Below are positions 34,004-53,246 of a stretch of DNA of 64,000 nucleotides, piece by piece. Position numbers and translations under genes: made by a program. Below the pieces are notes generated by a model, which had not been told where the DNA came from, did not search any database, and saw nothing but the letters and a program-made list of their open reading frames with translations. The stretch is from Bacteroidales bacterium (lineage in GTDB: Bacteria; Bacteroidota; Bacteroidia; Bacteroidales; WCHB1-69): assembly GCA_017549765.1 (NCBI GenBank), contig JAFYNM010000035.1, positions 1-64,000 of the forward strand. Reading direction: 5' to 3'. Position 1 is the stretch's first letter; each line of letters begins with the position of its first letter.

Positions 34004-34795
34004 TCATTTTTGGTCTGGTGTATTTTTTTTTTGACCTCCCCACCGTTGTTCTACTTCCAGAGGGAGAGTTCTGTTAATGTAATCCCTGTTTTTGTCCTGA
34101 GTTTTCGGCTCCGTAACCTTTACTACTGTTGTGTCATATCCGCCCGCCTCCAACATAAACCTGTACAGATCGTCCCGCGAATTGAATATCGTGTCGTTTA
34201 ACCCTGCAAACTTACCTTCTGAAACATATAATTTAGTCCCTTCGTCATAGAATACATACGGGTATAGATACTGGTATTGAGGAATGAAAGCATATGGTTC
34301 TTCTTTAGTCATTGGAAAGGCTGATGCTTTGAAAAACATCACACAATCATTTTGAAAGTGGTCTATCAGACCATTAAGTTGTTTAGACCATGATATGGAG
34401 GGGGAATCAAATTGAACATCACAATCAACATAATAGTATTCGCCTGTTTGTGGATTTACATATTTCGTTTTAAAAAGATCCCAAGAAGAAAAAGTCGCCA
34501 TCTCTAACGAAGCCGCCTCTCTTGTCACATATACCGTATCACCTGCTTTGGCATTACCTTTAAACACTCGGTATGCGATCACAGGACAAATGCCATAATA
34601 ATGGTTTTTCCCTTGGATATCTTTCACAGTGTAGGCATAAACGGGTTTCAAGAACCTGCCCTCCACCACCAATGTCGCCTCCTTGAAGAACGACATATTG
34701 TTCATGTCCATGTGTTGGTCTATCTCCTGGGACCAGCCTGCATGGAAGCATAACAGCAAAAGTGACGCTATGATCAAATATCTATTTTTCATCAT
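34004..34795 (-). CDS. Exported protein of unknown function
   Basis: 263 aa from 34795 (MMKNRYLIIASLLLLCFHAGWSQ, cleavable signal peptide). A longer in-frame start at 34843 lies upstream of the TATCTTTG promoter box and is rejected. The mature part is beta-rich, with VVEGRFLKPVYAYT and KAGDTVYVTREA, and shows no T9SS domain or lipobox. Single-gene transcript. Family not recognised. Confidence 0.75.
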   Translation of the reverse strand: MMKNRYLIIASLLLLCFHAGWSQEIDQHMDMNNMSFFKEATLVVEGRFLKPVYAYTVKDIQGKNHYYGICPVIAYRVFKGNAKAGDTVYVTREAASLEMATFSSWDLFKTKYVNPQTGEYYYVDCDVQFDSPSISWSKQLNGLIDHFQNDCVMFFKASAFPMTKEEPYAFIPQYQYLYPYVFYDEGTKLYVSEGKFAGLNDTIFNSRDDLYRFMLEAGGYDTTVVKVTEPKTQDKNRDYINRTLPLEVEQRWGGQKKNTPDQK

Positions 34796-34820
34796 AATAT
34801 GGAGTGTGATATTCCAGAGG

Positions 34821-34828
34821 CAAAGATA
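34821..34828 (-). promoter_or_regulatory. -7 promoter box
   Basis: TATCTTTG on the minus strand, directly next to the left arm of the 34829-35123 inverted repeat. Confidence 0.6.
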
Positions 34829-35123
34829 GAAAAAAATGGGCAATTATATACCTAATGGCACAAGAATCCTGAAAGCGACAGTCTGCATTTTTGTTCACGT
34901 TTGCCGCCGCTGTCAGAGGGCGGACAGAGCGGGCGGCTTTCATGTAGGCTTGATCTTTTGTAACTTTTCTATCAAGAGAAAAGTTAAAGACTATAATTAT
35001 TTAAAGGACTGATACTTGCCACAAAGCACGATGGTCTCTTTTTGCATAGCACTCTCGAACAAAGAGTTTTTTTTTCACCATCATATTTTTGCCATTAGGT
35101 ATATAATTACCTATTTTTTTTAG
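34829..35123. mobile_element. MITE-like element with ~32-base inverted ends
   Basis: The arms 34829-34861 and 35090-35123 are inverted copies; the inner 20 bases (core TGCCATTAGGTATATAATT) match at 19 of 20 positions and the outer AT-rich part matches with few changes. Between them are about 230 bases with no gene and one internal hairpin (AACTTTTCT / AGAAAAGTT near 34970). No transposase is encoded. This fills the 364-base gap between the exported-protein gene and rpsO. Confidence 0.6.
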
Positions 35124-49150: not shown

Positions 49151-50731
49151 CTATTCTCCCGTAATCACAATCTTCCTGTCCTTGGCGGCCTGGAGTCCGA
49201 AGACGGTCTCGTTGGCCGAGTCGGTGCTGAAGTGATGCTGCACGGCTCCTTGCGGGTTGGTGATGACGGTGAGTCCGGACTTGCTGCCGTCCAGATAGGG
49301 CACGAAGAAGCCCCCCTCGACTTGATGGAGGTAGTTGAGCAGACTGACGATGCGGCGGCTGGAGAGATGACGGTTGTAGTCGCTGTGATGCAGGGGCGAG
49401 GCGAACCCGCTGATATGGATGGTAACGGTGTCGCCATGCTCCAGCGCCTCTTTCAGATAGTGGGTCAGCTTCACGAGTCGTTCATAGCCCGTGGCCACCG
49501 AGTCGCGCATAAAGGCGGCCACCTCGGCGCGCACCTGCCGCAGGGTGTCTCCCGTCAGGCCGCCGCCAGCCTCCTCCACATAATGGCCGATCTCTTCCAC
49601 ATACTGCCGATAGAGCATGGCATAGTGCACTTCGGTGGTGTCGCGCGTGCTGCGCGGATCCGGGTAGTCGTTCTGGAAGTAGAGCGTGATGGGCAGCACC
49701 GAGGCGATGCGCTCCGCCAAGGTCGTGTCTGGTTTTGGCTGCGGCTTCACCGTGTCTTCATGCACCCACTGGAAATGATAGAGGTCGTTGCAACAGGTGT
49801 CCTGGTCGCCATAATAGTCGTTGGGCCGGTTGGAGGAGAAATAGCCGCTCCGGAGGTCCAGGGTGAGGTTGAAATAGTAGTCGTGATAGGTGGAGTTGAA
49901 GGGCACCCCCATGTTGGACACTTCGCCCCACTGGCTGAGCGCCCCCGCACTGTAGAAGATGTCGTAACCGCCAATGCCGAGATGCTCGTCCGAGCTGAAA
50001 TAGAGCCGTTGCTCGGGCTGGCAGTAGAAGGGCGTCACCTCGTTGCCCTCGGTGTTGATGGCCCGCCCCGCGTTGATGGGCGTGTCGTAGTCGCCGTCTT
50101 TCACGATGGAGTACCAGATGTCGAGGCCCCCTGCGCCGTGTTCGCGGTTGGAGACAAAATACAGGACCTCATATCCGTCAGCCTCCACCAGACAGGGCTG
50201 CATGTTGCTGGAGTTGGGCGCGTTGATGGTCTTGGGCAACATCTTGGGCTTCTCCCAGCCCTTCTTGCCCAGCTGCGACTGCCAGAGCGAGCACTGCAAC
50301 AAGCCGTCACCATCTTTCGTGCAACGGGTGAGCAGGAGCTTGTCGTGCCGGCTGTTGAAGCAGAAGTTGCTGTTGAACATTCGCGTGCTGTTGACCACTG
50401 TAGAGAAAGGCTGCGCCTTGGCATATTCTCCGTCTGCAAGCAGCTGGCTTTGGTACAGATAGCAGTACCAGCTAGTCTCGAAGAAGCGGTCGTAGTCCTC
50501 TTCGATGTCAGCCCGCATGGAGGTGAAGTAGAAGGTGGAGTCCGGGGCGAGATAGGAGGCATACTCCGAAAAATGGGAGTTGATGCGGGATGGCAGCCGT
50601 TCCACATCTACCGGCAGGGTGTCTTTTGCAATAAAACGCTGTTGCTCACGCCTTTGCGCATCCGTCAAAGGTTGTGCTTGTATGACGATAGTCGTCAGAA
50701 GAGTCAATATGAGCAAAAGAGTCCGTTCCAT
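49151..50731 (-). CDS. OmpA-family protein with PD40/WD40-like repeats
   Basis: 526 aa from ATG 50731, which shares one base with the porP stop (TGATG). Signal peptide ends VIQAQ. The middle contains PD40-type beta-propeller units (FVSNREHGAGGLDIWYS, LYFSSDEHLGIGGYDIFYS, GYFSSNRPN). The C-terminal OmpA domain has VTIHISGFASPLHHSDYNRHLS with RRIVSLLNYL, which may bind peptidoglycan. PorE/SprF-partner proteins of this build go with PorP/SprF in type IX secretion, and the gene is coupled to porP. An N-terminal helical-repeat region before the propeller is not obvious. Confidence 0.85.
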   Translation of the reverse strand: MERTLLLILTLLTTIVIQAQPLTDAQRREQQRFIAKDTLPVDVERLPSRINSHFSEYASYLAPDSTFYFTSMRADIEEDYDRFFETSWYCYLYQSQLLADGEYAKAQPFSTVVNSTRMFNSNFCFNSRHDKLLLTRCTKDGDGLLQCSLWQSQLGKKGWEKPKMLPKTINAPNSSNMQPCLVEADGYEVLYFVSNREHGAGGLDIWYSIVKDGDYDTPINAGRAINTEGNEVTPFYCQPEQRLYFSSDEHLGIGGYDIFYSAGALSQWGEVSNMGVPFNSTYHDYYFNLTLDLRSGYFSSNRPNDYYGDQDTCCNDLYHFQWVHEDTVKPQPKPDTTLAERIASVLPITLYFQNDYPDPRSTRDTTEVHYAMLYRQYVEEIGHYVEEAGGGLTGDTLRQVRAEVAAFMRDSVATGYERLVKLTHYLKEALEHGDTVTIHISGFASPLHHSDYNRHLSSRRIVSLLNYLHQVEGGFFVPYLDGSKSGLTVITNPQGAVQHHFSTDSANETVFGLQAAKDRKIVITGE

Positions 50732-51750
50732 CACATTAAATCATAAGGACATGGCTCTTTGCCAATGCGGTTGATGCGTTTCTTGCGGAAGATATAGGTG
50801 ATGGAGACCTCCAACGCTCCCCGGCCGCTGGTGGCAGTAAAGAAACGGGAGACATTGACATCGTAGCTGACTCCGATACGCAGGTTCTGCCAGTCAAAGA
50901 AGGCGTCCAGGATGAGGGCGTCGTTCCAGCGGTAGAAGAGGCCCCCGCCGAGGGAGAACAAAGTAGTGTAGCTGTTCTTTTTCTGGAAATATTCGATATT
51001 AGTGCCGAAGGCGTATTCGCTGAATTTCCGTTGCCACGTCATATAGAGACTCGGCTCCAGCGCAAGGTTGTCGCTGAGACTGATGCGGGCCAGCGCGTGG
51101 GTCGTCCAGCGCATGGGCAGCTGCAGGTATCCGTTCTGGAAGACTTCGGTGGGATGGTTGAGGTGTGACACGCTCATGCCGGCCTGGTAGTTGTCGGTCT
51201 TGTTGGGCGAGAAGCTCCAGAAGGCTCCTACCCCGCAGTCGAAGAAGAGCTGCCGCGTGTTGTCGAAGATGTCGTAGATGGGCGCGTCCGGGTCGTAGTA
51301 GCCGTTGTGGAACTGCTCATCCAGGCGGGCGGCATACTGGTTGTATGCGTTGTTGAGGATGCCGCCGTAGAAGCCGATGCCGATTTTGTGGCGGTTGCGG
51401 TGGCCCACATAGCGGATCAGCGAAAGGGAGGCCATCGCCTGTAGCGAGGTGTAGTTGAGGTCGCCGGCCTTGTCGCCGTTGAAGGCCAGGCCCGCCCCGA
51501 TGAGCGTCTGCTTGCGGTTGTTGCGGTAGATGGCGCCGTCAACACTGGCCCCGAAGGTCAGATAGGGCACGGTGACAGAAAGCCACTGGGTACGCTGCGT
51601 GAGCCCCGCCCGGATGAGTCCGTCATAGGCACCTGTCAGCGCTGGGTTGAGCGCCGTAGGCTGCGTGTAATACTGGGTGAAATGGTAGTTTTGGGCCTCA
51701 GTCCTGTTTATGCTAAAAAAAAAACTCAGCGCCACCAGGATCGTGATCAC
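50731..51750 (-). CDS. PorP/SprF-like T9SS membrane protein, alternative internal start
   Basis: A GTG at 51750 inside the rarA frame would begin a 339-aa protein of normal PorP/SprF length, with signal peptide ITILVALSFFFSINRTEAQ. It shows the PorP/SprF start QPTALNPALTGAYDGL and barrel strands to the end (ALEVSITYIFRKK). These proteins sit in the outer membrane and work with type IX secretion and cell-surface attachment. There is no clear Shine-Dalgarno, as usual here. This is offered as the likeliest separate product; it shares codons with the rarA entry. Confidence 0.6.
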   Translation of the reverse strand: MITILVALSFFFSINRTEAQNYHFTQYYTQPTALNPALTGAYDGLIRAGLTQRTQWLSVTVPYLTFGASVDGAIYRNNRKQTLIGAGLAFNGDKAGDLNYTSLQAMASLSLIRYVGHRNRHKIGIGFYGGILNNAYNQYAARLDEQFHNGYYDPDAPIYDIFDNTRQLFFDCGVGAFWSFSPNKTDNYQAGMSVSHLNHPTEVFQNGYLQLPMRWTTHALARISLSDNLALEPSLYMTWQRKFSEYAFGTNIEYFQKKNSYTTLFSLGGGLFYRWNDALILDAFFDWQNLRIGVSYDVNVSRFFTATSGRGALEVSITYIFRKKRINRIGKEPCPYDLM

Positions 51751-53016
51751 ATAGTGGTATTTCTCTTTCCAGCACTGTTTCAGATAGCGCCGCAGTTCGT
51801 TCTCGCGCGGGTTGTTCTGCGGGTCGTACAGCTGGGTGCCGCTGATCTGCTCCGGCAGGAACTCCTGGTTGACGAAGTTATGTTCGAAGTCGTGGGCATA
51901 CTGGTAGTTCTTGTGATAGCCCAGCTCCTTCATCAGCTTAGTGGGGGCGTTGCGGATGTGCAGGGGCACGGGCAGGTCGCCGGTCTGCTTCACCAACGAA
52001 TAGGCGTTCTCAATGGCCATATAGGAGGCGTTGCTCTTGGGCGAGGAGGCGAGGTAGATGGCCGTCTGCGCCAACGGGATGCGCGCTTCCGGCATCCCGA
52101 TGACGTTCACCGCCTGGAAGCAGTTGTTGGCCAGCAGCAGTGCGTTGGGGTTCGCATTGCCGATGTCTTCGGAGGCCAGGATAACCATCCGGCGGGCGAT
52201 GAAGAGCGGGTCTTCGCCCCCGACGAGCATCCGCGCCATCCAATAGACCGCTGCGTTGGGGTCGCTGCCCCGCAACGACTTGATGAACGCCGAGATGATG
52301 TCGTAGTGCTGCTCCCCTTTTTTGTCGTACATGGCCAGGTTCTGCTGGATGACGTGCACCACCTGCTGGTGGGTGACGTGGATCACCCCGTCCACCGGCT
52401 TGGTCATCCAGGTAACCAACTCTATGGCGTTGAGCAACTTGCGGGCGTCACCGCCAGAGATGCGCAAGAGGGCTTCGGTGTCTTCTATCTCTATCTTGCA
52501 GCTCATCTGGCCAGACAGATAATCGACCGCCGTTTGCAGGATGGTCTCCAGATTCTCTCGCGAGAGGCTTTTCAGCACATAGACCTGGCAGCGGGAGAGC
52601 AACGGCGAGATGACCTCAAAGGAGGGGTTCTCGGTGGTGGCGCCGATGAGGGTGATGACACCCTGCTCCACCGCGCCCAGCAAAGAGTCCTGCTGCGACT
52701 TGGAGAAACGGTGGATCTCATCGATGAACAGCAGTGCGCGCTTCTCCGATTTCTTGGCTTTGTCAATGACATCGCGGATGTCCTTGACGCCGCTGTTGAT
52801 AGCGCTGAGCAGGAAGAAGTCCGCATCGGTGAGCTCGGCGATGAGCAGGGCCAGGGTGGTCTTGCCCACGCCCGGCGGGCCCCAGAAGATCATCGACTGG
52901 ATGCTTTTCTGTTCGATGGCATTGCGCAATACGGCCCCTTTGCCCATCAGGTGCTCCTGCCCGATGTAGGCATCCAAGGTGTGCGGTCGTAATATTTCAG
53001 CCAGCGGTTTCTGCAC
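50731..53016 (-). CDS. rarA: RarA (MgsA) AAA+ ATPase reading in frame into PorP/SprF-like protein
   Basis: One open frame of 761 codons from GTG 53016 (translated as MQKPLAEILRPHTLDAYIGQ); a TTG further upstream is inside the promoter. Residues 1-421 are a full RarA/MgsA: Walker A FWGPPGVGKTTLA, Walker B LLFIDEIHRFSKSQQD, sensor GATTENPSFEV, C-terminal domain ending RRYLKQCWKEKY. No stop follows; the frame continues at residue 423 into a signal-peptide-like stretch (VITILVALSFFF, then TEAQ) and a complete PorP/SprF domain (FTQYYTQPTALNPALTGAY) to residue 761. Joining a cytoplasmic ATPase to an outer-membrane protein makes no obvious sense, so two products or a sequence error are likely (see findings). 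Confidence 0.85.
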   Translation of the reverse strand: MQKPLAEILRPHTLDAYIGQEHLMGKGAVLRNAIEQKSIQSMIFWGPPGVGKTTLALLIAELTDADFFLLSAINSGVKDIRDVIDKAKKSEKRALLFIDEIHRFSKSQQDSLLGAVEQGVITLIGATTENPSFEVISPLLSRCQVYVLKSLSRENLETILQTAVDYLSGQMSCKIEIEDTEALLRISGGDARKLLNAIELVTWMTKPVDGVIHVTHQQVVHVIQQNLAMYDKKGEQHYDIISAFIKSLRGSDPNAAVYWMARMLVGGEDPLFIARRMVILASEDIGNANPNALLLANNCFQAVNVIGMPEARIPLAQTAIYLASSPKSNASYMAIENAYSLVKQTGDLPVPLHIRNAPTKLMKELGYHKNYQYAHDFEHNFVNQEFLPEQISGTQLYDPQNNPRENELRRYLKQCWKEKYHYVITILVALSFFFSINRTEAQNYHFTQYYTQPTALNPALTGAYDGLIRAGLTQRTQWLSVTVPYLTFGASVDGAIYRNNRKQTLIGAGLAFNGDKAGDLNYTSLQAMASLSLIRYVGHRNRHKIGIGFYGGILNNAYNQYAARLDEQFHNGYYDPDAPIYDIFDNTRQLFFDCGVGAFWSFSPNKTDNYQAGMSVSHLNHPTEVFQNGYLQLPMRWTTHALARISLSDNLALEPSLYMTWQRKFSEYAFGTNIEYFQKKNSYTTLFSLGGGLFYRWNDALILDAFFDWQNLRIGVSYDVNVSRFFTATSGRGALEVSITYIFRKKRINRIGKEPCPYDLM
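51715..51724. other. Ten-base A/T homopolymer at the rarA-porP junction
   Basis: T10 on the coding (minus) strand. With ten T the frame reads SFFFSIN into PorP; with nine T it ends at TAA two codons later; with eleven T it ends at once at TAG. A possible transcriptional slippage site or a sequencing length error. Confidence 0.7.
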
Positions 53017-53038
53017 GTTTTCTTCTTTAATAGGATGG

Positions 53039-53046
53039 CAAAAATA
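53039..53046 (-). promoter_or_regulatory. -7 promoter box for rarA
   Basis: TATTTTTG on the minus strand, 22 bases before the GTG start at 53016; this decides against the TTG at 53049. Confidence 0.6.
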
Positions 53047-53246
53047 CAAAAATTGTCCGCAATCCTACGAAAAAACAACAGCTTCCGCTTTTTTTCACCA
53101 GCCTCTTTTTTTTAATTACCCGGTGACATTACTGAAAAAACCTTTTTTTGTGATTTTAAAATACTGAATATCTGCTATTTAACACTTTTCTTTGCAAAAA
53201 AATGTTATTTTTTTCGATTAGATGTTTGGCGAAAATCAAAAAAGTA

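Follow-up and report, generated by a model that had tools for sequence, protein, structure and literature searches.

The FbcH cytochrome b/c1 polyprotein of Bradyrhizobium is encoded by one open reading frame (ORF), and signal peptidase separates its two parts at a signal peptide within the chain. The locus described here resembles it in that two proteins would come from one ORF with an internal signal peptide as the point of splitting. Both parts of FbcH are membrane subunits of one complex, whereas the parts joined here are a cytosolic DNA-fork ATPase, RarA, and an outer-membrane protein, PorP. Proteins destined for the two sides of the envelope would not be expected in one chain. A second relevant system is dnaX of Thermus thermophilus, where transcriptional slippage at a run of nine A yields tau and gamma (PMC1088944, PMC5009743). 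There the homopolymer lies in a gene for an AAA+ protein of clamp-loader type, the zero frame leads to the long product and near stops in both other frames lead to the short product, and our locus is alike in this arrangement. It differs in having T10 rather than A9, in that its slippage is predicted from sequence, in that the long product would add an exported barrel, and in that only some members of the clade have retained the run. PMC1088944 also states that the importance of truncating slippage is hard to predict by comparative analysis. PorP-like barrels of the T9SS work with PorE in binding type-B CTD proteins (PMC9143113). Our locus shares with that system the PorP domain, a PorE-like neighbour and type-B CTD proteins, and differs in that its PorP is fused to RarA and lacks a clear separate start.

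The locus lies in a window of 64,000 nucleotides, by which we mean the whole stretch of DNA that was analysed. A minus-strand ORF of 772 codons (50731-53049) is open through both domains, in agreement with an earlier note on this DNA, which had claimed that rarA and porP share one frame without a stop and had placed the gene at 50731-53016; GTG 53016 is the likely RarA start. The features of the locus are as follows.

50731 to 53016, minus strand: RarA-PorP fusion ORF; likely start GTG 53016, frame open from TTG 53049; has full-length open relatives
51751 to 53016, minus strand: the RarA/MgsA AAA+ ATPase, whose last residue is the canonical Tyr (KEKYHY); PF12002, PF16193, PF00004; structure 3pvs
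51694 to 51750, minus strand: predicted PorP signal peptide, hydrophobic core and c-region, VITILVALSFFFSINRTEA, directly after RarA
51715 to 51724, minus strand: run of ten T on the coding strand (T10), unchanged in length in 17 species; genome G006 has T11
51708 to 51710, minus strand: TAA met in the -1 frame after one T is lost; in the zero frame it lies within ATA AAC
51691 to 51693, minus strand: codon of Gln453, the predicted signal peptidase I +1 residue (after Ala); invariant; Q-rule, PMC5837995
50734 to 51693, minus strand: mature PorP/SprF-like T9SS outer-membrane barrel; PF11751, TIGR03519; strands in the AF2 model
49151 to 50734, minus strand: PorE-like gene (PD40 repeats), starting at the stop of the fusion; NF052230 at 144.5 bits against a cut-off of 600

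A profile search of the fusion ORF placed MgsA_C (PF12002) at residues 261-426 and PorP_SprF at residues 451-752. The RarA part contains both the AAA+ core and the MgsA C-terminal domain (PF12002, PF16193, PF00004), and the E. coli RarA structure 3pvs matches it at 1.2e-111. The PorP part scores above the family cut-offs of TIGR03519 (147.4 vs 90.55 bits) and PF11751 (109.7 vs 22.3 bits). The AF2 model of the fusion has a mean pLDDT of 63.8, with residues 314-466, the joint included, mostly below 50; given these low values it was relied on for the PorP strand pattern only. The best 50 of 1217 Foldseek matches to this model were all RarA or clamp-loader entries. These results confirm that a complete RarA and a complete PorP share one frame in the source genome. 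The same genome encodes SprA and has 18 type-B CTD matches over cut-off, and the product of the PorE-like next gene is possibly the partner of the fused PorP.

The earlier note had named the rarA-porP boundary of close relatives as one place to look. Among 36 genomes of the same genus (G000-G035) the fusion was open in 23, of which 22 were full-length and one (G007) was cut by the contig start. One genome (G006) carried the fusion with a T11 run and a broken frame, RarA and PorP were apart in 11, and G025 had no RarA match. Four more open fusions were found, three in the Bacteroidales MAGs RUI581, RGIG7025 and Red_deer_3_mag_136 (from ruminant gut where the source is stated) and one in G332, which belongs to another genus of the same family, bringing the total to 27 open fusions in at least two genera. 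The earlier suggestion that a functional fusion is unlikely does not sit with a frame kept open in this many genomes, ten of which have no T10. In an order-wide search of 393 genomes from 206 genera, where a very divergent fusion could appear as two pieces, the full-length matches among those listed were confined to the source family: G000, G154 (identical in sequence to RUI581) and G332. No relative was found in the viral contigs searched. A genome of the same family that is 98% complete (G396) has PorP-like matches, and for RarA no more than a 31%-identity match to residues 13-135 and some weaker matches.

We take the in-frame gene fusion to be old. In trees, the unfused species form several groups among the fused ones, with 5-6 changes in all. 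One gain followed by several splits would be the shortest account if the fused G332 and Red_deer_3_mag_136 are basal, as they are, with weak support, in the RarA tree; the joint tree disagrees, and multiple gains or recombination may instead have shaped this distribution. The fusion is dispensable, because 11 same-genus genomes keep rarA and porP apart. RarA is more conserved than PorP, with 84-87% vs 47-62% identity in most unfused relatives. Among the matches listed (to about E 1e-7), no fused same-genus genome had a second RarA-like match of comparable strength, so the RarA function must rest with the fused gene.

Where the two genes are unfused, cargo ORFs lie between rarA and porP, some of them toxin-antitoxin-like, and the set differs from group to group. 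By Pfam, these include HigB_toxin with HTH (L052, 4200-4875) and Gp49-like with HTH (L059, 4237-4846); the cargo of L060 (4939-6617) and L053 (6079-7203) is known as ORFs only. The joint thus looks like an insertion hotspot. A different arrangement occurs in G013 (locus L062), where the rarA TGA is followed by one base and then GTG AAA AAA, where PorP might start and would then have a basic n-region; this is a tightly coupled but split form beside a fused clade.

The canonical end of RarA is Tyr433 (51753-51751). In all 27 fusions no linker separates the RarA C-terminus, KYxY, from the hydrophobic signal-peptide core of PorP. In unfused relatives RarA stops exactly at the Tyr of this motif (11/11), and the same holds for those outgroup rows with a recognizable motif. 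The hydrophobic stretch that directly follows the Tyr in fused genomes often reads (V/I)xLLLxAL and leads to the predicted cleavage site, a Gln and mature PorP. A similar core is preceded by basic residues in 11 of 11 unfused PorPs, and in the fusion the only source of such residues is the RarA C-terminus. Because this C-terminus joins the signal-peptide core without a linker, RarA would supply the basic n-region. Gln occupies the predicted +1 position in 27/27 fusions (24 in alignment A1, where it is invariant, and the other three), and the motif-based -1 residue is Ala in 24 and Gly in 3. Gln at +1 follows the Q-rule for signal peptidase I of Bacteroidetes (PMC5837995). A scan of 442 genes for internal signal peptides returned five matches, the fusion among them, and the only other match with a soluble N-terminal part has its own MKR start. 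With one open frame in 27 genomes and a conserved internal hydrophobic core and Gln, recognized by motif, we favour reading the fusion as a polyprotein, in which one chain would be cut by signal peptidase I with RarA kept inside and PorP exported.

The earlier note had placed a T10 run at the junction. The run is indeed near the joint (51724-51715 on the coding strand, in frame), but it lies inside the predicted PorP signal peptide, 26 nt past the end of RarA. It is found in 17 species, six in clade A and 11 in clade B, the source genome included, and is exact in 17 of the 18 members of these clades; since the species are related, these are not 17 independent events. The exception is G006 of clade B, where the run is T11 with TAA right after it and PorP lies in another frame without a start (L061, 4206-4260), which represents either a real off-state or an assembly error. 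The ten fused genomes without T10 have T9 (G004, G022, G015), T8 (G027), T7 (G023), T6 (G030) or shorter runs (G032, G035, Red_deer_3_mag_136, G332). The fusion is thus independent of the T run, and slippage would not be part of its core design, because 10 of 27 fused genomes lack T10. The unfused G013 and G020, which are close to clade B, have no run above T5.

Several observations point to constraint on the run itself. The three junction Phe codons are TTT in 51 of 51 cases in the T10 species, and the ten other Phe columns that are invariant over the 17 species have TTT in only 1-9 of 17. By parsimony over the 16 full-length genes, the junction Phe columns show 0 changes each compared to 1-5 in 19 other Phe columns. 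T10 is also the longest stretch of identical nucleotides in these genes (10 nt, the next being 9). Directly ahead of the three Phe codons stands a T in 17/17, although the codon it ends specifies Thr, Ser or Gly, and codons neighbouring the run drift freely. Within single clades the signal is less distinct. In clade B, the 14-nt identical stretch containing T10 ties with three others and one other Phe column is all TTT; in clade A, its 13-nt stretch is exceeded by four others of 14 nt, and no change is seen in 14 of the 28 remaining Phe columns, every one of them TTC. We also surveyed 863 kb of the 2.45-Mb source genome with coding sequences called by longest ORF. No other coding sequence in these 863 kb had T10, and four held A10. 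Of 40 Phe-Phe-Phe tripeptides, only that at the joint was written TTT TTT TTT and 20 were TTC TTC TTC. The longest run in 90 signal-peptide-like N-termini of the source genome was T6. From these comparisons, T10 within clades A and B appears to be under nucleotide-level constraint, beyond the needs of the protein. Elsewhere in the genome, two paralogous genes (34004-34843 of the window, minus strand, and G000:C23:47867-48745) both carry A10 about ten codons before the stop.

The consequences of a change in run length are as the earlier note described: with ten T the frame reads through, with nine it yields ...FFLA before TAA as the third codon, and with eleven it meets TAG immediately. In all 17 T10 species the third codon of the -1 frame is a stop, and in all of them except G012 the +1 frame stops immediately. 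Of 12,201 gene positions, 0.4% have stops in both frames this close. The stops behind the run, which lie within three codons, are partly expected from the amino acid, since a +1 stop always comes with Lys, and a -1 stop comes with a frequency of about 0.65 with Leu and about 0.13 with Ile. The -1 stop is built in five codon contexts (ATA-A, ATA-G, TTG-A, TTA-A and GTA-G). Where Ile follows the run in clade B it is ATA in 10 of 10 rows, which creates the -1 stop; ATA makes up 2.4% of invariant Ile codons in clade B and 12.7% of Ile codons in the source genome. The fusion thus has the sequence features of the dnaX type, namely a run of at least nine, stops in both frames and a run kept beyond the need of the protein. 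The slippage put forward in the earlier note gains from this, in that the run is slippage-prone, kept at the nucleotide level and followed by near stops in both frames in 16/17 species, and slippage itself remains a prediction from sequence. The note's stand-alone RarA was inexact, as the predicted slipped product is RarA with 12-14 extra, mostly hydrophobic residues.

We lean, with modest confidence, towards a RarA-signal peptide-PorP precursor that is processed by signal peptidase I, with slippage at T10 setting the ratio of RarA to PorP. The in-frame fusion would yield this precursor, of which the ribosome would make RarA first. The hydrophobic segment that follows would act as an internal signal sequence with the basic C-terminus of RarA as n-region, and PorP would be exported through Sec. 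Signal peptidase I would cut before the Gln, sending PorP to the outer membrane and leaving RarA at the inner membrane with a hydrophobic C-terminal anchor, perhaps to be freed later. Selection in the two clades would have kept the exact T10 inside the signal peptide, where RNA polymerase slippage, as in Thermus dnaX, would send some messages into the near stops. Such messages would encode RarA ending in a short hydrophobic tail but lacking PorP, which would set the RarA:PorP ratio. The fuller statement, in which signal peptidase splits a fork ATPase from an outer-membrane secretion protein, RarA is tethered and U10 sets the exported share, is one we regard as plausible and put forward tentatively.

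Other readings overlap with this one and each other in part, so their probabilities need not add up to one. The least unlikely is that the fusion is as proposed and T10 is a contingency tract for phase variation, with replication slippage turning PorP on at T10 and off at T9 or T11 while RarA stays constant. Homopolymers that switch surface proteins are of a known kind, and T11 in G006 would fit an off state, as its PorP frame has nine codons before the Gln with no ATG or GTG among them. However, 17 of the 18 species-level genomes in clades A and B keep the exact run length, and a product that every cell makes often would account better for the kept ATA and the immediate -1 stops. Unlikely too is a processed fusion whose T10 gives no alternative product and whose U-rich slow codons are kept for translation speed or targeting. 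TTT, ACT, AGT and ATA are minority codons in the source genome, TTT makes up 50% of Phe codons in signal peptides vs 32% overall, and ten fused genomes manage without T10. Against this, the codon before the run varies yet always ends in T while its neighbours drift, none of the 90 other signal-peptide-like N-termini exceeds T6, and the -1 stop is formed in five different codon contexts.

We consider it improbable that PorP is translated from an internal start, with the shared frame incidental. Start codons at the joint abound in clades A and B and are missing from several other rows. Over all fused rows, GTG or ATG occurs there in 17 of 26, with GTG at codon 51750 in 16 (GTC, ATC or GTA elsewhere), ATG at the next codon in 15, and GTG ATG in 11/11 clade-B rows. 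An in-frame ATG 61 codons upstream is present in 26/26 rows, and translation from it may occur, but this codon encodes a conserved Met of RarA either way. Near the joint, the 26 rows have no start codon in common. In G027, G023, G030 and Red_deer_3_mag_136, ATG and GTG are both absent over a stretch running from 22 codons upstream of the joint to 6 downstream of it; G004 and G001 each have a single such codon, inside the core. GTG 51750, which the earlier note had offered as a start for PorP, is therefore a weak candidate, and a start at the joint would leave the core without the preceding basic residues of the 11 unfused PorPs. A -1 ribosomal frameshift on U_UUU_UUU could also make the short form, as the slippery heptamer is present and the -1 stop occurs in 17/17. 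We rate this very improbable: no downstream stimulatory structure was found beyond synonymous shuffles in the 17 species (mean z 0.53), and the +1 stops are near as well. Next to no weight falls on an artefact of sequencing or assembly, or on an intrinsic terminator U-tract. Homopolymers are error-prone and T11 in G006 could be such an error, but error as the cause of the fusion is ruled out by the fused relatives that lack the T run, ten of the 27. Upstream of the run, hairpins are weak and vary from species to species (z scores -1.7 to 2.2), and no terminator was called there.

The processed precursor with slippage at T10 is thus the reading we prefer, and slippage selected for truncation could be tested on it directly. 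Should the chain be both made and cleaved, the signal peptide would double as a membrane anchor for a DNA-repair ATPase, and the homopolymer inside it would meter the split between RarA and PorP.
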